A DNA stretch of 64,000 nucleotides from Methanopyrus sp. SNP6 (GTDB lineage Archaea; JAADCQ01; Methanopyri; Methanopyrales; Methanopyraceae). How positions within the stretch are numbered: position 1 is the first letter of the stretch; every line of letters begins with the position of its first letter. The stretch spans positions 1 through 64,000 of the forward strand of contig NZ_CP019436.1 of assembly GCF_002201895.1 (NCBI RefSeq), given 5' to 3'. The translations under genes were made by a program, and so were the position numbers. The notes under the pieces are model-generated. The model searched no databases, was not told the origin of the DNA, and saw only the letters and a list, made by a program, of their open reading frames with translations. Below, piece by piece: positions 47,384-59,346 of this stretch.

Positions 47384-48651
47384 CGTCCCATTCCCCTCCG
47401 GTTCAAATCACTCAGAGTGGGTCGGTTCTCAGCCACGAGGTATATCGCTGGAAGCTTGAAGTACTCAGGACCCATGAGTAGTTTTAATAGCTGTTCTAAG
47501 TTCTTCACGATAGGTGCGAACGTCAAAGTCGGCTTACCTGACTTGCGTGGACTTTTCACTAACACCCACTCTCTAATCCCAGCTTCATCAGATCTTTCTA
47601 TCAGTTCGTTCAGAAGTGATAAATTCTTTTTAGCATTTAAGTAGTCGGCACGACATTCTTTCTCTACCAGCTCTCGTAGTTCCATTATCCAGTCTTCGAG
47701 CTCGTACGTCAACCGTTCGTATAATTCTCGGAATTTTGTCTTCTCCTCCAGTGCTTTCTTCACTTTTCGGATATCGCGGTCCCAATCAACGACACTCCAC
47801 ATGTGAGATTGGTCTAAGGCTAGGTCGTCTAATTCCCTTTCCAGTGTGCGCGATCCGACGTATACGTACCCTGGGACCTCGACCACGAGCGTCCCGGGTA
47901 GCACGTGTGCGTCGTCCAATATCACCAGAGATCCTTCTAGCGCTTTTTCCCAGTCTTTTTCAGAAATGAAAGGTTCCTTATCCAACGCTTGGCGTGCACG
48001 ACGGTGCGACGCGTACAGGAACGGAACCGACATCAGCTTCCTGAAAGAAATACAGATTATCCTTTTCGGGTCGCATAGCTGGTCGATAATGGGGCAGTCC
48101 CTGCATGAATCCCACGGAGCGAACCCGTTGATGAACGGGTTCCCTTTGTACATGGCTTCACGGACTTTCTCCCGCAACTTCTCGTCGTTTTTAAGCACCC
48201 CCAATAGTGGACCTTCCGTTCTGTAGAACCACGGATAACACTTAGGCTCATCCTGGGCGGAACCCGCGTGCATCATGACATTGATGAGCTCCTCCTGCTC
48301 CAGTTCATCACCCAGGAGCTCCGGCAGCTTGACCTTGCATTCGTCGTAGTCCTCCACCCTGCGCCAAAGGTCGACACTGAGGTCCCATTCCCTGAACTTC
48401 TTGTACTCCCGCTCAGCCAGGTCCGGTGACGGAACGGAATAGAACACCCTTCCCCTGTACTCCCTTGCCACCCTTCGCAGCAACCAGGTTTTACCCGACC
48501 CGGGTCGCGTTGTAAGCACGGCAACGTTATCATGTTCCAACTGATCTCGGACGTCTTCCAACATCTCGTACTGCGGACCTCTCAGATCGTACTCCTCCTC
48601 TACAGCGTCTAGAGCGTCGAACAGGACATCCTTACCACCCTCGCGGCTCAA
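47380..48651 (-). CDS. XPD-like Fe-S helicase, ATPase half as a separate protein
   Basis: 423 residues. RGPQYEMLEDVRDQL (Q-motif region) and Walker A TTRPGSGKT (about 47-55) begin it, then VFYSVPSPDLAEREYKKF (motif Ia). Clustered cysteines at 105, 138, 183, 186, 193 and 200 lie where XPD holds its 4Fe-4S cluster. VILDDAHVL (about 243-251) is a DEAH-box variant with Asp for Glu. A helical arch-like region follows, and the protein ends at about where helicase domain 2 would start. It overlaps the GTPase gene before it and the domain-2 gene after it by four bases each. XPD-type helicases unwind DNA 5' to 3'. Confidence 0.75.
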   Translation of the reverse strand: MSREGGKDVLFDALDAVEEEYDLRGPQYEMLEDVRDQLEHDNVAVLTTRPGSGKTWLLRRVAREYRGRVFYSVPSPDLAEREYKKFREWDLSVDLWRRVEDYDECKVKLPELLGDELEQEELINVMMHAGSAQDEPKCYPWFYRTEGPLLGVLKNDEKLREKVREAMYKGNPFINGFAPWDSCRDCPIIDQLCDPKRIICISFRKLMSVPFLYASHRRARQALDKEPFISEKDWEKALEGSLVILDDAHVLPGTLVVEVPGYVYVGSRTLERELDDLALDQSHMWSVVDWDRDIRKVKKALEEKTKFRELYERLTYELEDWIMELRELVEKECRADYLNAKKNLSLLNELIERSDEAGIREWVLVKSPRKSGKPTLTFAPIVKNLEQLLKLLMGPEYFKLPAIYLVAENRPTLSDLNRRGMGR

Positions 48652-49700
48652 CGCGCCGCCCCCTCCACGACCCCAAGCACCGCCGGTTCGTCGCCCACGG
48701 TCACCAGGAACCGGTCGCCGGGTTCCACAACTACCTCACGGTCCAGCTCCAAGACGACGTGTGCCACGTTGTGACCCTCGGCGTAGGGTCGTATCACTTC
48801 CGTTCCTGCGTGCGTCTCGACTTCCACGAACTCGACGTTCGCGGCCGCTGAGAGCACGTGTACCTTCCCCATCGTCCCGGGCCGAACCTTGGCGCCTATC
48901 GAGAGGACTTCCGCCCTTATCCCGTCGGAGGTCGATAATCCTTCCCCGAGGCACATCCCACGTGTGATCGAGCCCTCCACCTTCAGCCTAGCCTTGAACG
49001 GTGATCCCGGTCTGAATCCGCCCGCCGACTCCACCTCCAACACTTCCGCGTTCAGCCCACCCGGCTGAACTTCGACCCACCCTTCCTCCAGCGTACCTCG
49101 ATCCACTACTCCGAACACATCAACGGTCGTCTCACCCACCCTCCGCGTGGATTCCACCGGAGCCCGCAGCGAGTCCGATTCGGACGGTCGAGGTGGTTCT
49201 TCCAGCTCGGCCAGCGCGTCGAGCAGCTCTTCCGCCCCTTCCCCGGTCTTTGCGGACACCAGGACCGGTTCTCTGACAGTTTCCACCCCGAGCAGCTCCA
49301 AAAGATCCATCACCTCGTCCGCGACCTCGGATACCCGGTTACGGTCCACCAGGTCCACCTTGTTCACGACCGGTAGTACCCTCGCCCCGTAGAATGAGAC
49401 CACGAGCGCGTGGTCGATCGTCCCTGGACACGGTCCCTCGTCGGCCGCGACCACTAGAATCGCGTAGTCCGCGCTCCATGCGGACGTCAGCATGTTACGG
49501 ATGTAGTCGCGGTGACCCGGCACGTCCACGAACGAGATCGTGGTGTCACGGAACTCCAGGAACGCGCGTGCGGGTTCTATTGTGACACCCATTTCCCGCT
49601 CATGGGGCAGCCTATCCAGCCATTCACCGGTCAACGCTTTCACGAGCGTAGTCTTCCCGTGGTTGAAATGTCCGCAGACGACTACGTTGACTACATTCAC
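48648..49700 (-). CDS. EF-Tu/SelB-like translation GTPase
   Basis: About 350 residues from GTG 49700 (GGAGGG seven bases upstream). G1 is CGHFNHGKTTL, switch I EMGVTIEPA, G3 VDVPGHRDYIRNM, G4 NKVDLVD and G5 VSAKTG. Two beta-barrel domains follow, ending in LELDREVVVEPGDRFLVTV. A threonine-containing switch I (GVTI) and the barrels place it with EF-Tu, IF2-gamma and SelB. SelB is attractive because selD and a SECIS are in this window, and the archaeal SelB C-terminus has a similar EVGDRVLIT element. However, it is shorter than typical archaeal SelB and could be another EF-Tu paralogue. It lies inside the operon between the exported CobN-like gene and the split helicase. Confidence 0.65.
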   Translation of the reverse strand: MNVVNVVVCGHFNHGKTTLVKALTGEWLDRLPHEREMGVTIEPARAFLEFRDTTISFVDVPGHRDYIRNMLTSAWSADYAILVVAADEGPCPGTIDHALVVSFYGARVLPVVNKVDLVDRNRVSEVADEVMDLLELLGVETVREPVLVSAKTGEGAEELLDALAELEEPPRPSESDSLRAPVESTRRVGETTVDVFGVVDRGTLEEGWVEVQPGGLNAEVLEVESAGGFRPGSPFKARLKVEGSITRGMCLGEGLSTSDGIRAEVLSIGAKVRPGTMGKVHVLSAAANVEFVEVETHAGTEVIRPYAEGHNVAHVVLELDREVVVEPGDRFLVTVGDEPAVLGVVEGAAR

Positions 49701-49768
49701 ATCGCCACCCTCCAGCCGCTCCGCGCTCGCTTCCGTGCGGTTAGCTCCGGGGATCACCTCCTATTTAT

Positions 49769-52700
49769 TCACCACCCCCTAGGATCCGGTTCGTAACGCT
49801 TCGCCCACCATACGGCTAGGAAGAAGCTCACGAGTAACGTCAGTGCCAGCAACCACCTCGGGAAGTAGGATGTCGGGGTCGCCTGATACTCCCGCGTCAG
49901 CACTCTCCCGCTCATCGCGACGGTCGACCCGACACCCTTTCCGGTTCCGGCGACTTTATCCGCAACACCTTCTAGGGACACTCCTACCCCGGTGTGCCCC
50001 AACGACTTCGGACTTACCCCAGTCCCAGTCGCCATCGCGACACGCGAGACTGTGGCCACAACCTGGGAAATCACAGGTGTCATATGAACCGCAGTTGTCA
50101 CATGGACGGTTGGTCTGAGCACCGGACGCGTCATCGGCGCGGTCCTGGATACCGGGGTAGCAGTCTCTACCGCCATCCTCTCGACGATTCCGGACTGGAA
50201 GGCGCAGAGTTCTGGGCAACAGCAGGCCACTGAAGCGATCCAGGATAACGCCTCTCGCGGGTAGGGGATGCTCAGATCGGTCGAGATTCTGACGAGCGAG
50301 AACGCGGCCGAAGCTAGGGCCGTCGGCACCGACGCTAACCAGTCTGCGTTGGCTTTGACTATGGACCAGACGGTCGGGAGGACAGTTGCGAAGTCGCGCC
50401 GCCCTACCGCGACGTACCCGAGGGTCGCGAACCGCTTGAGCGAGCGCAACAGGTATAGGGCGCCCGAAGCACCGAACCGACGGAGTCCGGTGGTAAAGCT
50501 CCTGTTATACAACGTCCTAAGCAGACTCCGCATGAGATACGCCCGAGTTGTGACCAACGGACCCGAACCACGATCGATCTTCCTCGCCGTCACTCTCAAG
50601 TCGTTCACAGCGCGGAGGAGGGCCTCACTCCACCCGACGAGCCTCGCGAGGCGGCCCGCACCCTTGGCAACGTTCCAGCCAGGTTTGAAGGCGCCGAGGT
50701 CGACCTTCGAGACGTCGAGCGTCCACCCTCTGACGGAATTCTCACGGAGCAGGTAATCCAGGAGCGCCCTCGCCGACGCCTCGAGGTTGACGGTGCAACC
50801 GCAGCAGAAGAGGTTCGAGTAATCGTCGTACGAGTCGAACACCTGCAGGACCGCGTCCGAGGTGACGACAGCCAAGGCTAGTGCGAGCGGACAGTGTAGG
50901 AACGGCTGCCGCATTCCCACGAGCTCCGATCGCACATACGGGAGGACTGTGTACGAGAACCCGACGAGCGTCCGGAGCCCTAGGGACTCTACACTGTCAC
51001 TCGTGTACATGCCGGCCTCGATCATCGGGAGTACCGGCGCTATGAACTCACCCGGACACTGCGTGAAGACCGCGGCGCCTGCCATCACCGGAACGTTATC
51101 CCACGTCAGCTCCCCGAGGAGCCAGTCGGGGAGCCTATCCTTCAACGCCTCCCGTAGGACCAAGTATGAGACGGCCCAGTGCAGGAACGGAGCGTTTCGG
51201 GACGGTAGAATCCACAGGCCGGTACCGATAGCAACCGACCACAGGAGCTCCGCCAGGTTCCACCCGACCAAGTCTCGAAGACCGACGACGACGTAGTCGT
51301 TCAGCTCCTTAAGCCCCTCGTGTAGTTCGTGGAGCGTACCCAGCGGATCGCGCTCCAGCTTCGTCATGACGTCATCGAGGAGCTTCCTGAGGACTTCAGG
51401 GACACACCCCCGATCCCGAAGTCTCTCTTTCACCTCCTCCAACGATCTCTCGAGTGCCTCGAGCACGTCTCTTAGAACATCCCATCGCCCCGCACCGTGA
51501 GGCCTCGCGGTCGGTGAGAGGTACGAGCGTTCACCGATGGCCAGGGCGACCCACGGTTCCGCCGCGACCACGTCCAGCATGCGGCACATGTTGACCAGCG
51601 AGAGCGCGGACGGGCTGATCCCCTGGAACGTCGCCCCCGACACTAGCAATAGGACATCTTTCCTGACCCTGGGTAAATCGAGTACCTCGATTCCCACGAT
51701 CCGGACCGTCCGGAGATCGAACGTCAACTCACCTACAACGACTACTCTCTCTCCGATGCGTAGGTTCACTGGATACCTGAACGTGACGGTGATGCTCGCG
51801 CTCGGATCGTACTCGGATCGGAGGACGATGGTGTGGTCGTTCAGAACCTGCTTCACGATCCCGCTCACGCACGCACTCGTACCTCCGCATACGGTGGGTA
51901 TTGCGACGAGGTCGGCCACGTCTACGACGTCCTCCTCGCTGTACGATATCACGAGGTCCGAGCACAGCAGGCGCACGTTCTCGGCCTCGAAATCTGGGAT
52001 ACCGAGCACGACGAGCTCCTGGCCCACGCTCACCAGGGTTCCTTCCGGGAGCACGATTTCAACGCGGGCCGTGCCATCGTCCACCACGGCCGTTAGTGAC
52101 CTGCCTGAGTACCGGACTTCCGTGACCCGACCGCGAACCAGGAGGGTCTGGACGGGTACGTTCGGGTGTCGGACGTGCACGAGCGGTAGTTCCCAAGGGA
52201 GGACGCCGATTACCTCACCGGTTAGGTTCGTCCTGCATGAGGTCCGACCCGTCGTCGTGGGAGTATAGCTCCTGAAAGAGGTCTTCACAGGCACGTAACC
52301 GAGTAATTCCAGGGCGAGCGCGTACTGGAGGCCGCCAGTGGCTAAATCGGTCGGCCCCATCACCATGATCACACGATCCTCCGTACGCCGGTACAGTTCA
52401 GTCGCGACCACCGACGACACGGAGACGGCAGTTTCGTCAGGGAACCTCCGCGTATCGTAAGCGCAGGTATTCCTCCCGGTCGGGGCGACGTAGACGTATC
52501 GAAGCGGTGAGCCGCCGAATCCCGGGCGTATGTACTCCGCGTGCAGTGCTTTGAGGAGGTTCTCGATCTCGTACTTAGCACTGAGCAGAAACCTTCTGAG
52601 CACTTCGCGGGCCAAGTGTGAGGTCTCGTCGCAGTCCCTCCCTGCCCACACTGCCTCCCAATTTATGCTTATCTTCCTCCACAACGCCCGTCGTAGGGCG

Positions 52701-55603
52701 AGCTCGACCATGCATTCGAGCGAGTGGAACGGGTCCTCAGGGTCGATCGATGGCAGGCCGTACACGTGTAACCCACACATTCCCGATTCTTCCTCGACCT
52801 CCCTTAGGAACTCGTACAATAGACTCGCACACCGGTCAAAGTCCCGCTCGAATTCCTCGAGATCGTTCGCGACTGCCGCGTACAGTCCCGTGGATCGAAC
52901 TAGTTCGAGAATCGCGTCTCGGAGCGCGGGTGACCGTGACTGCAAGTACTTCTCCAGCGTCTCGATCAATCGCTCTACCTCAGGATCGAATCGGACCTCG
53001 TTTCTGGGCGCTGGGAAGTAACCGAGGACGATCGCGCCAAGCCGGCGCCTGGCCGTGACGCAGCCGGTCGGATCCCCCACGTGGTACAAGCAGACGATAG
53101 GGGTACCGTCGGATAGGACTATGGGGAATTCCCAGCCGAGTGGAAGGATCGGTTTCAACGGAGTCCACTCGAGGTTACCGCGGCTTCCGATCCTAATTAC
53201 CGCGTCCGCGTCGAACTTCCGCATGAGGTAGTACCAGAACGCCAGGTAGAGATGAGTGGGCGGGAGCACGACCGTCCGGAGCTCCGCCTCGGACTTCATC
53301 CGCAACAGAGGCGGTTCTGGAAGTACGATAATGTTTCCGAATTTCATTCCTGGTATCGGAAACGCGCGAACCCCATCCACGATCCTCAGGAACGGGGATT
53401 TCTCGGGCGGACCCCACCCGAAGAGCCCGCCCAGCTCGTCCAACCGATCACTCCACTCCTCCCACAACCCGTCCAACTCGCGCAGCACGTCCTCCTTGTC
53501 CAGCTGGCGACCTAACGCGATATCGACGAGCAGGTCTGTCACCTCCGCGAAGACATCCCGTAACCTATCCACCAGAGCCTTTCGGGCCTCATCATCGAGA
53601 TCCAACAGGTTCAGGCACGAGATCGCGGTGTCCATCAGCGCCTTCATCCTTACCCGGAGGAACTCGAGGTGGCGTTTGTCGGGAGGTAATTCCCCGTGGT
53701 CAGCCCGCTCGACGAGATACCTGAGGTATCCTAGTATCCCCCGTTCTACGTACAGTCGAGTGGGTTCGGGGAGAGAGTGATACCACTCGAGGTATTCGTC
53801 GAGGGTAACCTTGTCGAGGAGTAGTAACTCGACCTCGTGCGCCCGACCACTCATTCGCTCGACAAACCGGTTTAGACCGGTGTGGAGGGGCGGGGTCCTC
53901 ACGTACGGGCCCACGTGATAAGCTTTGGACAAGTACTCACGATAGAATTGGTCCGATAGCCCTAGCAGCACATTCATTGCATCACGGAAGATCTCGACTG
54001 CCCGACGGAAATCACCTAGCTCGAGAAGTTCCCACGCCTCTCGGTCCAACTCGACAACCCGGTGTAGCACCTCGTCCCACGGTGTGCGGACCGAGTACCT
54101 ATTCTCGCGCAGCCAAGCCAGGATGTGTAACACGCTCGCGGGCACGTCCAATTGATCAGCTACCGCTACGAAGTCCCGACCGAAGGTGTCGACGCCGTAC
54201 ACCAATGCCACTCTCTTCTCACGGTTGGGAGCCTCACGCAACCGGCGGAGCTTCTCGACTAGGCGGACGACGGCGTCGATCGTTTCCTCGACCGCGCTAC
54301 CGCTGATTCGGAGTACTCCACCTGGGACGTGTCGGGCGAGCCCCGGTGGTAACCTGACAACGCGCGATGTCCCGACGAGGAACGGACCTAGGAAGCCGAG
54401 GTTCTCCGGTACGATCACGTTGAACACCATGTAATGGTCGGCAGCGCGCTCGGACATGTACAGGCATTCCCACTGCAGCTTAGTCATGCCCATGTGGTTG
54501 CTATCCAAGCCGATCACCGGGACGTTCAGCCGCTCGAACAGTCTCACGAGCCGGCTGTCGGGACCGTAGTACCGCATCATACTGTGGTTGACAGCCCACA
54601 TGATACATACAGTATGCTCTTCCTCGATTAGCGGCTCCAGTGCCTTGAGAAGTTCTTCGGGTAGCATGTACAGGATGTCGTAGTGCAGGGCGATGGGCAC
54701 CACGTTGTACCCGCGTTCGTGGAGCTTCCCTGCAAGCACCTTCAACCAGTCGAGGTAGCCGAGGTGTCGGCCCAAGAGGTTGGCCGAGTCGAAGACGACG
54801 AACACTGTCGGGGCTCTCGAGGAGTAGAAACCTTTCGACTCACCCAGTTTCCGGTAGCGGTCGAAGATCTCGTGAAGCCTGGGAAGGACCTCGCCGCGGA
54901 TCAGCTCCACGAACCACCGTGGGTACACGGTGATACCGTGGTAGCTGGATAGTACCTCGCCGTGTGGGAACTCGCGCTGGTACCTCAGGATCACGATCGG
55001 ATCGACGGGATGGTCGTAGGAGACCACGGTATCAGTGAGCGGGTCGTACAGGGACAGCAAACCGTCGAGGTAGAACGCTCTGGGTGGTTCTCCACTTCCC
55101 ACGTACCTGAAGAACTGAACCAGGTTACGCTCGGAGAGCGTAGTTAGGAACATGTAAAGTGGGATCTCGGTGCCCCCTACGTCCACCGTGCGGTCCACCA
55201 GCGGTACCATTTCGGCCTTGGCCGAACCGATCGGGATGTTGATGTCGTTCTGATACACATAGAATGGGACACCGCGCGACAGGGCCTCAGCTAGAGCCGC
55301 GTACTCCGGCGCCGAGTACGGGTCCAACACCGTCAGTCCTGACGATCGATATAGTATCACGGCCGAAGCGTTCCGGATGCGCTCGCAGGTTTCTTCCCTC
55401 ACCTCCTCGAGGTTCGCACCTACGATGAGGGAGTCGTACGAACGCGGGTCGATGGCGAGGAAGTCCACTCCGGACTTCGATAACGGTTCTATGAACTGAC
55501 CGGCGTAACGTGAGATAACTACCACCTCACCGCAAGAAACCGGTACGAACGAAGTAAAGGCTGTGATGAGTAATAGCGAGAGAATTAGGGGGGGACACGG
55601 CAC
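49769..55603 (-). CDS. Exported, membrane-anchored CobN-like protein with OB insertion
   Basis: 1944 residues. A signal peptide (about 1-25) and a C-terminal membrane helix (about 1912-1935, WLLALTLLVSFFLAVWW) put the body outside the cell, after a Thr/Val-rich stalk (about 1780-1900). The body follows the CobN/chelatase H-subunit fold: CGLHVYG near 944, LHAEYIRPGFGG and APTGRNTC near 1040, then LLLVSGATFQGISPSAL. Where the cytoplasmic CobN of this window has HFGTHG, this protein has RIGSRG (about 803), so the metal-site histidines are gone. A beta-rich, OB-like segment (about 1150-1305, for example VLVRGRVTEVRYSGRSL) is inserted in the chelatase domain. Cysteines are numerous near 1600 (FCCGC). 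Start GTG 55603, GAGGGGGG upstream. It sits 14 bases after the toroid gene. Confidence 0.8.
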   Translation of the reverse strand: MPCPPLILSLLLITAFTSFVPVSCGEVVVISRYAGQFIEPLSKSGVDFLAIDPRSYDSLIVGANLEEVREETCERIRNASAVILYRSSGLTVLDPYSAPEYAALAEALSRGVPFYVYQNDINIPIGSAKAEMVPLVDRTVDVGGTEIPLYMFLTTLSERNLVQFFRYVGSGEPPRAFYLDGLLSLYDPLTDTVVSYDHPVDPIVILRYQREFPHGEVLSSYHGITVYPRWFVELIRGEVLPRLHEIFDRYRKLGESKGFYSSRAPTVFVVFDSANLLGRHLGYLDWLKVLAGKLHERGYNVVPIALHYDILYMLPEELLKALEPLIEEEHTVCIMWAVNHSMMRYYGPDSRLVRLFERLNVPVIGLDSNHMGMTKLQWECLYMSERAADHYMVFNVIVPENLGFLGPFLVGTSRVVRLPPGLARHVPGGVLRISGSAVEETIDAVVRLVEKLRRLREAPNREKRVALVYGVDTFGRDFVAVADQLDVPASVLHILAWLRENRYSVRTPWDEVLHRVVELDREAWELLELGDFRRAVEIFRDAMNVLLGLSDQFYREYLSKAYHVGPYVRTPPLHTGLNRFVERMSGRAHEVELLLLDKVTLDEYLEWYHSLPEPTRLYVERGILGYLRYLVERADHGELPPDKRHLEFLRVRMKALMDTAISCLNLLDLDDEARKALVDRLRDVFAEVTDLLVDIALGRQLDKEDVLRELDGLWEEWSDRLDELGGLFGWGPPEKSPFLRIVDGVRAFPIPGMKFGNIIVLPEPPLLRMKSEAELRTVVLPPTHLYLAFWYYLMRKFDADAVIRIGSRGNLEWTPLKPILPLGWEFPIVLSDGTPIVCLYHVGDPTGCVTARRRLGAIVLGYFPAPRNEVRFDPEVERLIETLEKYLQSRSPALRDAILELVRSTGLYAAVANDLEEFERDFDRCASLLYEFLREVEEESGMCGLHVYGLPSIDPEDPFHSLECMVELALRRALWRKISINWEAVWAGRDCDETSHLAREVLRRFLLSAKYEIENLLKALHAEYIRPGFGGSPLRYVYVAPTGRNTCAYDTRRFPDETAVSVSSVVATELYRRTEDRVIMVMGPTDLATGGLQYALALELLGYVPVKTSFRSYTPTTTGRTSCRTNLTGEVIGVLPWELPLVHVRHPNVPVQTLLVRGRVTEVRYSGRSLTAVVDDGTARVEIVLPEGTLVSVGQELVVLGIPDFEAENVRLLCSDLVISYSEEDVVDVADLVAIPTVCGGTSACVSGIVKQVLNDHTIVLRSEYDPSASITVTFRYPVNLRIGERVVVVGELTFDLRTVRIVGIEVLDLPRVRKDVLLLVSGATFQGISPSALSLVNMCRMLDVVAAEPWVALAIGERSYLSPTARPHGAGRWDVLRDVLEALERSLEEVKERLRDRGCVPEVLRKLLDDVMTKLERDPLGTLHELHEGLKELNDYVVVGLRDLVGWNLAELLWSVAIGTGLWILPSRNAPFLHWAVSYLVLREALKDRLPDWLLGELTWDNVPVMAGAAVFTQCPGEFIAPVLPMIEAGMYTSDSVESLGLRTLVGFSYTVLPYVRSELVGMRQPFLHCPLALALAVVTSDAVLQVFDSYDDYSNLFCCGCTVNLEASARALLDYLLRENSVRGWTLDVSKVDLGAFKPGWNVAKGAGRLARLVGWSEALLRAVNDLRVTARKIDRGSGPLVTTRAYLMRSLLRTLYNRSFTTGLRRFGASGALYLLRSLKRFATLGYVAVGRRDFATVLPTVWSIVKANADWLASVPTALASAAFSLVRISTDLSIPYPREALSWIASVACCCPELCAFQSGIVERMAVETATPVSRTAPMTRPVLRPTVHVTTAVHMTPVISQVVATVSRVAMATGTGVSPKSLGHTGVGVSLEGVADKVAGTGKGVGSTVAMSGRVLTREYQATPTSYFPRWLLALTLLVSFFLAVWWAKRYEPDPRGW

Positions 55604-55617
55604 CGGAAGAACCCCCC

Positions 55618-56988
55618 TCAGCGGCGTCGGGTTAGGAGCGACGCTGCGAGGGCCAGTGCCAGGACCCCTGGAGCCACTGGGAAGCGTTTCCGCTCGGTGA
55701 TACCCTTGACGCCCAGTTTCTCGGCCAACGCGAAGGCTGCCAGCGCGTACGAGGTCGCCAGCGTCTGGCTCCGGTAGCGCAGCTCCGGGCTCCAGACGCT
55801 CCGGATGAAATACCAGTAGAACGGTAACCTCAGTCGCTTGGCCCTCAGGTACTGGTCGTGCAGCACCTCAAGTGCTTTCACGATAGCCTCGTGGTTCGGG
55901 TCGATGAGACCCAACTTCGCGCACCTGAGCAGCGCGACCAGCGCGGAGGCCGTGCTACCGTAGTCCGGCGGGTACTCGGTCAGCGGGCCGCGACCCCACA
56001 TGCCGGACTCCTGGTCCCGAAGAGATAGCAGGTAGTCGATAGCTTTCTTGAGCGCGTTCTTCACGCGCTCTACTAATCCCTTCAGCTCGTCTTCCTTGCC
56101 CGCCCGCTGCACGGCTTCGAGCCAATCGCAGAGGGCGATCACAGCACGACAGTGTCCGGTCGTGTACAGCGGGTACGGGCAACCTGTATCCCTCGGGTCG
56201 GTGTAGAAGTTACCCTTCTCGTCCTGGTTGTTCAGGAACCACTCGACGACCTTCAAGACCAGATCGTCGTCCGGAGGCGTTCCGGCCGCCAGCAGCGTCC
56301 GGAAGCAGTACGATGTCACGTCCGTGATACCGTGAGCACCACCCGGACGGTCCGGGTAGTCTATCCAGCAACAGCCCTTATCCTCCTTCTGCAGGTTCGG
56401 ACCCTCACGGAGCCATCTGATCACCTTCTCTAGGAACGGCTTGTACTCGTTCCACTCGTCGTCCGGAACGATGCCCGCCTGTCTGGCCCGGAAGAACGGC
56501 AGTGCGAACTTCGCTGTCAATCCCGCGCTAGGGATTTCTTTACCGTCTTTTATTCTGACCCAGTACGCCCACTTCCCGTTGGGATCTTCCTTGCGCTGGT
56601 ACTTACCCTTCACGTTCCACATATACCGGAGGGCCTTCAGGATCATGTCCTTGTCGATGGGGTACCCGGCCTCGACGGCCGTCAGTAGGGTGTCCATGAC
56701 CACGTACGTGTGCAGGTTCGGCAGGCAGTAGTACGTGACGTCCGACTTGTACGACATCGGGAACGCGCCGACGTCTTCCGGCTTGACCTGGTACGTGGCC
56801 TTCTGTCCGCTCCTATCCTTGTACTCGATGATTTTTCCCACGTCGTCCTCAGTGTACTGCTGCCCCTTCAACCAGTCGTGAGCGGCCCTGGCGCACTCCT
56901 GGATCTGCTCGGCCGTGATGGCGGATCCCGGAGCGGTCGATAGACCAGCAGCGACGAGGGCGAGTACTAACGGCCTAAGGATTCCCAT
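55618..56988 (-). CDS. Exported alpha/alpha-toroid protein (prenyltransferase/squalene cyclase-like repeats)
   Basis: About 456 residues from ATG 56988. A signal peptide (GILRPLVLALVAAGLSTAPG) is followed by repeated helical hairpins of the terpenoid-cyclase/protein-prenyltransferase type: KGCCWIDYPDRPGGAHGITD, TGCPYPLYTTGHCRAVIAL and SGMWGRGPLTEYPPDYGST. The C-terminus is a hydrophobic helix with a basic end (VLALALAASLLTRRR), so it is probably surface-anchored. The DxDD motif of cyclases was not seen, arguing against an enzyme. The same barrel forms the cobalamin-binding domain of intrinsic factor and transcobalamin. Its place between a permease and an exported CobN homologue suggests ligand capture, which is inference. 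Confidence 0.75.
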   Translation of the reverse strand: MGILRPLVLALVAAGLSTAPGSAITAEQIQECARAAHDWLKGQQYTEDDVGKIIEYKDRSGQKATYQVKPEDVGAFPMSYKSDVTYYCLPNLHTYVVMDTLLTAVEAGYPIDKDMILKALRYMWNVKGKYQRKEDPNGKWAYWVRIKDGKEIPSAGLTAKFALPFFRARQAGIVPDDEWNEYKPFLEKVIRWLREGPNLQKEDKGCCWIDYPDRPGGAHGITDVTSYCFRTLLAAGTPPDDDLVLKVVEWFLNNQDEKGNFYTDPRDTGCPYPLYTTGHCRAVIALCDWLEAVQRAGKEDELKGLVERVKNALKKAIDYLLSLRDQESGMWGRGPLTEYPPDYGSTASALVALLRCAKLGLIDPNHEAIVKALEVLHDQYLRAKRLRLPFYWYFIRSVWSPELRYRSQTLATSYALAAFALAEKLGVKGITERKRFPVAPGVLALALAASLLTRRR

Positions 56989-57041
56989 CGCGGTATTACC
57001 CCCGCCCGCCCCCATGTTATTACAAAATAAATTTTGCTGGT

Positions 57042-58025
57042 CTATGTTCTACTTCGTGCTAACCTCCATATGACTCCCACCACTATAAGTGATAGTAGTA
57101 TCACCGCGGGAACGGCGTCCAGGCTCGGGTGACTGGACACCTCGAAGACATCAGCGGGAACTACCGGCACACGTATGGTATCCGCAGCATATCCGGCCGC
57201 GACCGCGCAGAGGGTGATTCCGACCAGGTAAGCCGCGACGATCCTCCATCCCAGGAATCGTAGGATAACGGACAGCGTGGCTACATTGGTCCCAGGGCCG
57301 GCCACGGTGAACGTCAGCATCGAGCCTATGGAGGCTCCCTTCGCCACCAGCGAGGCTGCTATGGGGATCGCGGCGACCGAACACACGTAGAGCGGTAGAC
57401 CTATCAGGGCGGCGAGAATAGACCCGAGGAGACCCTTGAGGTATCGTACCGTCGGACTCGGTACCAACAGTTCCAGCAGGACTGAAGCTACAAGTCCTAT
57501 CAGAAGCCACGGCCCTACGGTGCCCGATAGCTCCAGAAGCTCACGTGGGAAATCCTTGAAGGAACGCCCTCGGCAGCATGGTCCGTGTTCTCCGCACAAT
57601 GGGAGTTCTTCCGCCTCTTCGCTTCGGTCCTTCAGGGCGAGCTCGGCCATATAACCGACCACTACGGCCGCAACTACCGCGGTCAGCACCTTAGCCGCCA
57701 TGAAGTACGGCCCGAGCAGCGCGTAGGCCAACAACAGGGAGTTCACGTCGGTTTGCGGGGTAGCTACGATGAAGGCGATGACTGGGCCTACACCGGCCCC
57801 ACGGTTCTTGGCCGCTATCGCGAGCGGGAGGACCGAACACGAGCAGAGGGGAAGCGGAACTCCGAGAAGCGTTGCAATTATGCAAGCCTTGAGGCCACCA
57901 CGCAGATGACGGGCGAGGTAGTGTTCAGGAACCATAGATTGTAGTGCAGCTCCTAACACGAGACCGATGAGCAGGTACGGAGAAATCTCCGTTAAAAAGC
58001 CCACGAACGCGTTTAGGGGATCCAA
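57042..58025 (-). CDS. ArsP/SO_0444-type permease
   Basis: About 327 residues in two homologous membrane halves, each with about four helices. The first half has GVPLPLCSCSVLPLAIAAKN and ATPQTDVNSLLLAYAL. The second has GLPLYVCSVAAIPIAASLVA and VAGPGTNVATLSVIL. A cysteine/histidine-rich loop joins them (LPLCGEHGPCCRGRSF). Relatives (DUF318/ArsP_1) move organoarsenicals, metals or unknown anions. TTG 58025 (GGGGGA upstream, DPLNAFVGFL) is the better start; the frame runs to 58064, across a TATA element. First gene of the operon leading to the toroid and CobN-like proteins, so its substrate may be a metal or metal complex. Confidence 0.82.
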   Translation of the reverse strand: MDPLNAFVGFLTEISPYLLIGLVLGAALQSMVPEHYLARHLRGGLKACIIATLLGVPLPLCSCSVLPLAIAAKNRGAGVGPVIAFIVATPQTDVNSLLLAYALLGPYFMAAKVLTAVVAAVVVGYMAELALKDRSEEAEELPLCGEHGPCCRGRSFKDFPRELLELSGTVGPWLLIGLVASVLLELLVPSPTVRYLKGLLGSILAALIGLPLYVCSVAAIPIAASLVAKGASIGSMLTFTVAGPGTNVATLSVILRFLGWRIVAAYLVGITLCAVAAGYAADTIRVPVVPADVFEVSSHPSLDAVPAVILLSLIVVGVIWRLARSRT

Positions 58026-58060
58026 GTGCCGTCCCCCGACAGCCAGTGGTTCTGGAGTGC

Positions 58061-58074
58061 ACATATACTAAAAA
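58061..58074 (-). promoter_or_regulatory. TATA element of the permease-toroid-CobN operon
   Basis: Read on the minus strand as TTTTTAGTATATGT, about 36-49 bases before the TTG start at 58025. It is the only AT-rich block upstream of the six-gene operon. Confidence 0.5.
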
Positions 58075-58140: not shown

Positions 58141-59346
58141 TTACTCCTCCACTATGGTCTCTTCGACCTCCATCCCGAAGTGACGGCCCTTACCTTCTTC
58201 GGTCTCCACGTATGCGAGCACCTTGTCGCCTGGTTTGAGATCGACTACGGATACAGGCTCGCCGTCCTCACGTACCAGGTGAATGGTTTCGGCGTTCTGG
58301 ACTATAGTTTGAATCTCCAAACCTTCGTACTCAGCGCGGATTAGCATTAGCGGTCTCCGTTCGATCTTCAGTCGGCCCACTACCGCGGTCCTTGTACGTC
58401 CCTCCGTGTCGACTATCAGCACCTCATCGCCGGGTCTCAGCTCGGCCAGGTACTTCGTCTTCCCGCCGGGCACACGGATGTAGGCGTGGACCGGACCGGC
58501 GTTCACCCGGAAAGGTCGCGGCTCGACGTACGGGTTCTCGAGGCTCTCGCTGTGGATGAGGAACATCCCGCGAGATGTCGACCCTACGAGCATCCCTTCA
58601 CCCTCGGACATGAGCGAGCAGGTGTCCACGCAAACCCTGTCGCCCTTACCTATCGGTTTGACCTCCTTCACCTCGACCGCGACGAGCTCGAACCGCTCCG
58701 CCGCGGCCCGCTCCGCGATCTCCGCGGTTTTCTTGATCTCTGACGGATCGATCCGCTCCGCGTCGAGCAGGACACCATCCGAACCCACATCGAGCGTCTC
58801 GAAAGCTATACGTGCCTCCTCGGTATCCCGAGCCCCGGCGATGAGCTGTGTCTTCTCACTCTGGAGTTCCGCGATGAGGTTCTCCAGCGGGATGATTTTC
58901 CAATCACGACCGATCGCGATCACGTAGTCGGGTCCCACGTTCTTCGCTATCTCCACGGCGAAGCGCTCATAAGGCTTGTCCATAATCTCTACGTACTCGG
59001 CGACCTCGAACCCGCGATCCCGCGCCTTCTCGATGAGCGCGGCGTCGATGGACTCGGATACGTCGTCCGGCAGGTCGATGGACCCGTCTCCCTCACCACC
59101 TTTGCCAACAATCACCACGTCGGCGTCGATGGCATCCAGCTCCTCGAGAGCTAGGTCGGGGGAACCTGGGTCCGGCATCAGCGGCACCGCGACCTTAACG
59201 TTTCCGAGCTCTTTCACGCGCTCTACGTCCTCGGGAAGGCAAACTATCACGTCAACACCGGCCTCGATCGATTCCGTGACGTAGGGCTTTTTCTCGTCCC
59301 ACTCTCCTTCGAATGCCACCGAGACCCAAACCTGCTTGGTCTGCAT
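58141..59346 (-). CDS. aroB': 3-dehydroquinate synthase II (ADTH route)
   Basis: About 401 residues of the archaeal NAD-dependent enzyme that oxidatively deaminates ADTH to 3-dehydroquinate, replacing DAHP-based AroB. Recognised by [20 protein letters not shown] at the N-terminus and, in the second half, [31 protein letters not shown] and [20 protein letters not shown]. It follows aroA' on the same strand with a 6-base gap, the standard pair for making aromatic amino acids from aspartate semialdehyde. Confidence 0.94.

Follow-up and report, generated by a model that had tools for sequence, protein, structure and literature searches.

In the first 64,000 nucleotides of the single 1,421,521-bp contig of Methanopyrus sp. 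SNP6 (NZ_CP019436.1, positions 1 to 64,000; this whole stretch is called the window), three adjacent minus-strand genes encode a homologue of the class-I chelatase large subunit that is predicted to be exported and membrane-anchored, an exported alpha/alpha-toroid protein and an ArsP_1 permease. The conserved unit consists of the CobN homologue and the toroid, without the permease, and it occurs five times in the genome. With a probability of roughly 0.5, this pair is a surface module that would capture a metal-tetrapyrrole or another metal complex, and the CobN homologue in the window is more likely to serve as a receptor or carrier without catalysis. The module is best read as receptor-like and derived from an HmuS-like de-chelatase.

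The three genes are the following:

49769..55603, minus strand: CobN/ChlH/HmuS-like protein (CobN-A) of orthogroup A, 1944 residues, predicted to be exported and C-terminally anchored; Pfam PF02514, E = 2.2e-81
55618..57015, minus strand: exported alpha/alpha-toroid protein (toroid A), 465 residues counted from the upstream-most start; toroid profile, 4.5e-111
57042..58064, minus strand: ArsP_1 permease (ArsP), SO_0444-like; Pfam PF03773, E = 4.4e-41

Comparison with orthologues indicated that 56988 is likely the true start of toroid A, and the orthologue in the sister genome likewise points to 58025 for ArsP. With these starts the intergenic gaps are 53 and 14 bases. The initial annotation of this stretch had described three minus-strand genes with the same gaps, and all open reading frames were found at these places. 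The three-gene observation is confirmed, and the interpretation that accompanied it is supported in part.

Five CobN-toroid pairs in Methanopyrus

Five Methanopyrus genomes were compared, namely the window genome (G000), its sister genome G001 and G002 to G004. The paralogous CobN/toroid sets were lettered A to E, the window set being A. PF02514 could be identified at seven places in G000. Besides five large exported forms, these are a cytoplasmic-type CobN at 3.7 kb and a CobN at 885-888 kb that is split. The copy at 3.7 kb, annotated before as a standard CobN, is complete and scores 1002 bits across the whole Pfam model.

Exported CobN forms in the window genome: A, in the window; B, 164 kb; C, 434-439 kb; D, 739-742 kb; E, 1253-1258 kb

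A toroid profile run on the same genome identified exactly five toroid genes, one adjoining each exported CobN. If five toroids were placed at random, the chance that each would fall no more than 2 kb from an exported CobN is ∼4e-8, a rough value (∼47 kb of 1421 kb, to the fifth power). Both G001 and G002 have the full set of five pairs, pair D was found in G003 and pairs B and C in G004. The pairing is kept at each of the 18 Methanopyrus loci at which the toroid side could be assessed, the other loci of G003 and G004 being cut by contig ends. Toroids without a CobN, or that could not be placed, are also present in G001, in G004 and on short contigs of G002, and pair E of G001 contains interruptions in that record.

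Between G000 and G001, the ratio of nonsynonymous to synonymous substitution rates (dN/dS) is 0.165 for CobN-A, 0.102 for toroid A, 0.185 for ArsP and 0.14-0.19 for the other pairs. Purifying selection acts on all genes of the pairs and on ArsP, and the gene for CobN-A is functional; that it is a pseudogene is ruled out by its dN/dS and its full-length reading frame. CobN-A is 85% identical to its G001 orthologue, and the orthologues of toroid A show 92% and 78% identity. Because the G001 orthologues are 85-92% identical and syntenic, dN/dS lies at 0.10-0.19 and the toroid-CobN neighbourhood is found five times in the genome, the locus is more than a chance arrangement.

The permease is distributed differently. 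An ArsP_1 gene adjoins pair A in G000 and G001 and lies elsewhere in G004; none was found in G002, although CobN-A and toroid A are kept there, and none lies beside the other four pairs. The annotation had named conserved co-occurrence of the three genes as a check, and this is true of the exported CobN and the toroid but not of the permease.

Pairs B, D and E are each accompanied by one more exported protein, which is conserved and belongs to no known family (L021:97-1848, L023:8518-9828 and L025:13985-15511). The one at pair E (exE, L025) was considered by eye as a CbiX-type chelatase for its PYHGSYDPHW sequence; this was rejected, as it had no match in Pfam or the PDB. The split CobN (G000:C1:885139-888203, L024:5140-8477) consists of two divergent halves, covering Pfam positions 2-507 on the plus strand and 676-1085 on the minus strand. 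The same CobN is split in G001, G002 and G003, and at least its first half is present in G004.

The exported CobN homologue and its relatives

CobN-A matches PF02514 far above the cut-off, and its solved relatives are CobN, ChlH and HmuS. In a profile comparison, A and C aligned with other CobN-like proteins from residue 223 to ∼1110, covering the N-terminal part and domain III (probability 100, E = 2e-87), and their C-terminal half gave a separate match (probability 96%, E = 3e-9). In contrast to the cobaltochelatase CobN and the Mg-chelatase subunit ChlH, with which it shares this homology, CobN-A carries export signals, has lost the metal-ligand His and stays far under the NCBIfam equivalog cut-offs (152.9 versus 822 bits for TIGR02257, CobN cobaltochelatase). 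The following features were read within the gene:

55532..55603, minus strand: signal-peptide-like N-terminus, residues 1-24, MPCPPLILSLLLITAFTSFVPVSCG (direct sequence reading)
53177..53194, minus strand: RIGSRG, residues 804-809, at the position of the superfamily motif HxGxHG (alignment A3 and motif scan)
51674..52141, minus strand: insertion of ∼155 residues (∼1155-1310), probably two OB-like domains (boundaries from alignment A3)
50204..50224, minus strand: CCCPELC, residues 1794-1800, C-terminal Cys cluster (alignment A3)
49796..49855, minus strand: C-terminal transmembrane anchor, residues ∼1917-1936, WLLALTLLVSFFLAVWW-AKRYEPDPRGW (direct sequence reading)

Hydrophobic N-termini recur among the orthologues and paralogues of CobN-A. 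The anchor is a hydrophobic helix followed by basic residues and preceded by a linker with 31% Ser/Thr/Pro, a layout common to all exported paralogues in alignment A3. CobN-A is, as judged from its sequence, exported and membrane-anchored, as are the CobN-like heme de-chelatases HmuS/BtuS of Bacteroidota (PMC12583661, PMC6460266). The annotated signal peptide and anchor could thus both be recovered, and the proposed surface location of the exported proteins is supported at this level. The annotation also remarked that large subunits of chelatases normally reside in the cytoplasm; this leaves out HmuS/BtuS and a broad class of archaeal CobN homologues that are exported.

In HmuS, His-538 of HFG(T/A)HG and His-1209 of LSLDHxxEFMGG are opposed across the cavity, the former being described as a residue that the whole superfamily conserves (PMC12583661). 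The equivalent of His-538 in CobN-A is Arg808, so that HxGxHG has changed to RxGxRG. The Arg is also present in the G001 orthologue (RVGGRG) and in the G002 reading frame (VVRVGGRG), and the His is kept by every CobN-like protein outside orthogroup A in alignment A3, including paralogues B, C, D and E. At the second site (LDHxxEFMGG, with His-1209 and Glu-1212), CobN-A reads YDDYSNLFCCGC; cytoplasmic CobN has LDHYYEFLGG, and Asp replaces the His in the archaeal exported forms that were aligned. Because both sites have changed, de-chelation by HmuS chemistry is unlikely for CobN-A, which is probably non-catalytic; de-chelatase activity is possible for paralogues B, D and E. The annotation had suggested that the three proteins capture or process a metal-tetrapyrrole or metal ion, and metallation or de-metallation by the window copy is now unlikely. 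The loss of the His lowers the probability that CobN-A is an HmuS and leaves intact the idea that it binds a similar ligand.

The OB-like insertion is restricted to orthogroups A and C. Its first domain reached 27.4 bits against PF01336 (cut-off 27 bits) when scanned as an isolated fragment, and the second was assigned from internal resemblance only. All aligned exported CobN-like proteins, unlike cytoplasmic CobN, bear a cluster of Cys, or of Cys and His, close to the C-terminus. It reads CCCPELC in A, CCCPGVC in C and TCHHTSPNP in B and E, CCHHTC or CCDCSC in others and a weaker CGC in D, and HmuS has C...C where it aligns. CobN-A also bears an FCCGC cluster.

CobN-A thus shares with HmuS/BtuS the chelatase body, export, anchor and aligned C-terminal Cys pair, and differs from them by the absence of the two axial His, the tandem OB-like insertion and the toroid partner. 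HmuS also has the heme ligands Met-79 and His-254 in its head and neck; the head region of CobN-A has diverged too far to be aligned reliably. Neither a hemophore, a TonB receptor nor linked hmuTUV genes accompany the window locus. An ExbB-DUF2149 module, as in the HmuS/BtuS systems, is present in the genome: a single DUF2149-MotA/ExbB-DUF2162 operon, related to the hmu module, lies at L085:6709-8902 (∼364.7-366.9 kb), ∼310 kb away and unlinked to any CobN gene. A hypothetical gene and MotA/TolQ/ExbB and DUF2149 genes come after the CobN gene of hmu operons (PMC10434189).

Outside the genus, 60 genomes from a neighbouring phylum of archaea (probably Methanobacteriota, judging by content) and a 197-genome archaeal sample were searched. 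PF02514 was found in 55 of the 60, and almost all of ∼40 CobN loci read in this phylum encode exported, C-terminally anchored proteins. They resemble CobN-A in the signal peptide, the anchor, the C-terminal Cys/His cluster and the presence of multiple paralogues per genome. Unlike CobN-A, none has a toroid neighbour and they are often linked to DUF2162-ExbB-DUF2149; at 15 sampled loci at least one gene of the DUF2162-MotA/ExbB-DUF2149 set adjoins the exported CobN. The C-terminal half of an exported methanogen CobN is closest to HmuS among solved structures (E = 5.5e-52). Exported CobN-like proteins are widespread in methanogens, and how archaea use them is unclear according to the authors of the HmuS study (PMC12583661). 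Exported CobN-like proteins as such are therefore not new; the novelty lies in the one-to-one pairing with a toroid, the tandem OB-like insertion and the loss of a superfamily-invariant His in the window copy. No published link between CobN and a toroid was found in the open literature, subscription papers not being covered.

In one methanogen (L109:1-16208, genome G054), an exported FmdE-domain protein, CbiM, two exported CobN-like proteins and DUF2162-ExbB-DUF2149 lie in a row, possibly a Ni/Co uptake operon.

The toroid and the permease

No toroid could be identified in seven genomes of the neighbouring phylum or in other archaea of the 197-genome sample, except for two weak matches in G187 and G200, which were set aside as unrelated since these genomes have no CobN. 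For an alignment-based scan of named genomes, the toroids taken together were not conserved enough; a narrower scan returned one contig of a metagenome-assembled genome only, and the viral contigs searched returned nothing.

Toroid A matches SQHop_cyclase_C of Pfam weakly and below the cut-off (E = 0.0016), and its paralogues reach E = 5e-12. The paralogues are down to 20-30% identical to each other and each is still conserved. An AlphaFold2 model of toroid A, built from three sequences, showed an all-helical barrel with a few strands (mean predicted local distance difference test score, pLDDT, 75; predicted template modelling score 0.80). When this model was searched with Foldseek, (alpha/alpha) barrels were retrieved, with GH105/GH88 hydrolases and sugar epimerases on top (template modelling score, TM, ∼0.5) and transcobalamin at rank 37 (TM 0.34-0.38). 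A PDB profile search with all toroids matched squalene-hopene cyclases, pectate lyases and thioester-domain proteins, without a match to the transcobalamin/cobalamin-binding family to E = 0.1, and neither toroid A nor its paralogues matched a cobalamin-binding family in Pfam.

The initial annotation had drawn an analogy with transcobalamin and intrinsic factor. Toroid A shares with these proteins export and the alpha/alpha-toroid fold class, yet this fold is common to many unrelated families, and neither the sequence profiles nor the fold ranking supports toroid A as a transcobalamin relative; its relatives are the repeats of squalene-hopene cyclases and pectate lyases. As modelled, the fold would permit a ligand pocket and names no ligand.

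The C-terminus of toroid A shows a pattern that is common to most toroids:

55621..55683, minus strand: C-terminal tail FPVAPGVLALALAASLLTRRR, consisting of P-x-x-P, a hydrophobic stretch and RRR

Such P-x-x-P/hydrophobic/Arg-rich tails were also observed on the toroids of L022, L023 and L025 and on the three exported proteins beside pairs B, D and E. All five Methanopyrus genomes contain an exosortase/archaeosortase family gene (at ∼667 kb in G000), and the tail is possibly an archaeosortase-type sorting signal, perhaps an undescribed one.

ArsP has the two repeats of ArsP_1 permeases and exceeds the PF03773 cut-off (141.4 versus 32.3 bits). Among curated families it comes closest to the SO_0444 Cu/Zn efflux family NF033936 of NCBIfam, whose cut-off it does not reach (225.7 versus 300 bits), and it bears a Cys/His cluster, CGEHGPCC. 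Because it is missing from G002 and from the other pairs, ArsP is an optional neighbour; it is probably a metal or metalloid effluxer. The proposal that cargo is handed to the permease is thus weakened, since ArsP is absent from one of three genomes with pair A and its nearest families are effluxers; uptake of cargo through ArsP is not supported.

Proposed role and alternative explanations

In the proposed mechanism, the exported CobN and the exported toroid would act as a two-protein module at the cell surface, one of five paralogous copies. The chelatase body would be held outside the membrane by its C-terminal anchor, as in HmuS/BtuS, and the toroid would be secreted and probably anchored through its own tail. 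The module would capture a metal-tetrapyrrole or metal complex, in a methanogen preferably one related to Ni or Co. Paralogues B, D and E, which keep the metal-ligand His, could de-metallate it, and the window copy, with Arg instead, would more likely be a receptor or carrier. The single unlinked DUF2162-MotA/ExbB-DUF2149 triad may energise the whole set. CbiM beside the exported CobN pair of G054 would point to Ni/Co nutrition, as would CobN1 of Methanothermobacter, which is present at a high level only under Ni limitation (PMC12350162). The BtuS homologues of Methanosarcina barkeri respond to the iron/sulfur source (PMC10846266).

Several observations weigh against this capture role. The ligand is inferred, as are contact between the partners, direction of transport, energisation and the part played by ArsP. 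Sugar-acting alpha/alpha barrels fit the generic toroid fold better than transcobalamin does, and among ∼200 archaeal genomes the pairing is confined to Methanopyrus, exported CobNs of other archaea doing without a toroid. CobN-A was not found in the assemblies of G003 and G004 and is read in two frames in that of G002 (frameshift). An AlphaFold2 model of CobN-A residues 730-1870, built with three sequences, reached a pLDDT of 37 and was not used. The Methanothermobacter study does not state whether CobN1 is the exported form (PMC12350162), and a BtuS double mutant still freed porphyrin from heme, so that the role of these proteins in Bacteroidota is debated (PMC6460266).

Of the other explanations, an envelope function is unlikely: the old chelatase body would serve as a structural or glycan-binding surface protein and the toroid would act on envelope polysaccharide. 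The hydrolases and epimerases on top of the fold ranking are consistent with it, as are the anchored layout, the lost His and the added OB-like domains. However, by sequence the toroid is related to terpene-cyclase and pectate-lyase repeats, no catalytic residues of these hydrolases could be identified, and the metal-ligand motif of B, D and E argues for a family that still handles metal or tetrapyrroles. Surface defence against metals or metalloids is rated as distinctly unlikely. ArsP would export a thiophilic metal (Cu/Zn-type) or an organoarsenical, which the Cys-bearing CobN-A and the toroid would sequester outside, with no tetrapyrrole involved. The resemblance of ArsP to the Cu/Zn efflux family and the Cys clusters of ArsP and CobN-A (CCCPELC and FCCGC) would suit this, and an SO_0444 transporter of a vent bacterium is induced by Cd/Cu (PMC10092412). 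The patchy occurrence of ArsP speaks against it, and the C-terminal Cys cluster is also found in paralogues that have no ArsP.

It is hardly likely that the exported CobN, the window copy included, strips Ni, Co or Fe from tetrapyrroles exactly as HmuS does; body, export and anchor are the same, but the substitutions at both ligand sites of CobN-A and the lack of linked hmu genes oppose it. That the toroid only helps each surface CobN to mature or fold at very high temperature, and has no ligand itself, is very unlikely. Strict one-to-one pairing and a Methanopyrus-only distribution would be expected of such a partner; the divergence of the toroid paralogues, each of which is nevertheless conserved, is equally compatible with specificity for a partner and for a ligand.

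A bolder form of the capture role is tentative and falls clearly below even odds. Here the genus would possess five parallel modules of chelatase and toroid at its surface, each specialised for its own metal or metallo-tetrapyrrole (cobamides, F430, heme or their breakdown products); some copies would remove the metal extracellularly, and that in the window would be a dedicated non-catalytic receptor for a tetrapyrrole or metal, with added OB-like domains. If true, the set would be a nutrient-acquisition system not described in archaea, and with a Ni or Co tetrapyrrole as ligand it would salvage scarce methanogenesis cofactors at the cell surface. A genus with a constant small partner for every exported CobN and one copy that naturally lacks the His offers a testable handle, in the form of a natural comparison between active and inactive copies.

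Two genes flank the locus. A short SelB-like GTPase (48648-49757, 369 residues, 150.9 bits versus a cut-off of 242) begins 11 bases past the stop of CobN-A and is also a neighbour in G001 and G002. On the other side lies a 3-dehydroquinate synthase II (58141-59346), the C-terminal part of which shows a weak match to a Hint module (E = 7e-4, below the cut-off).

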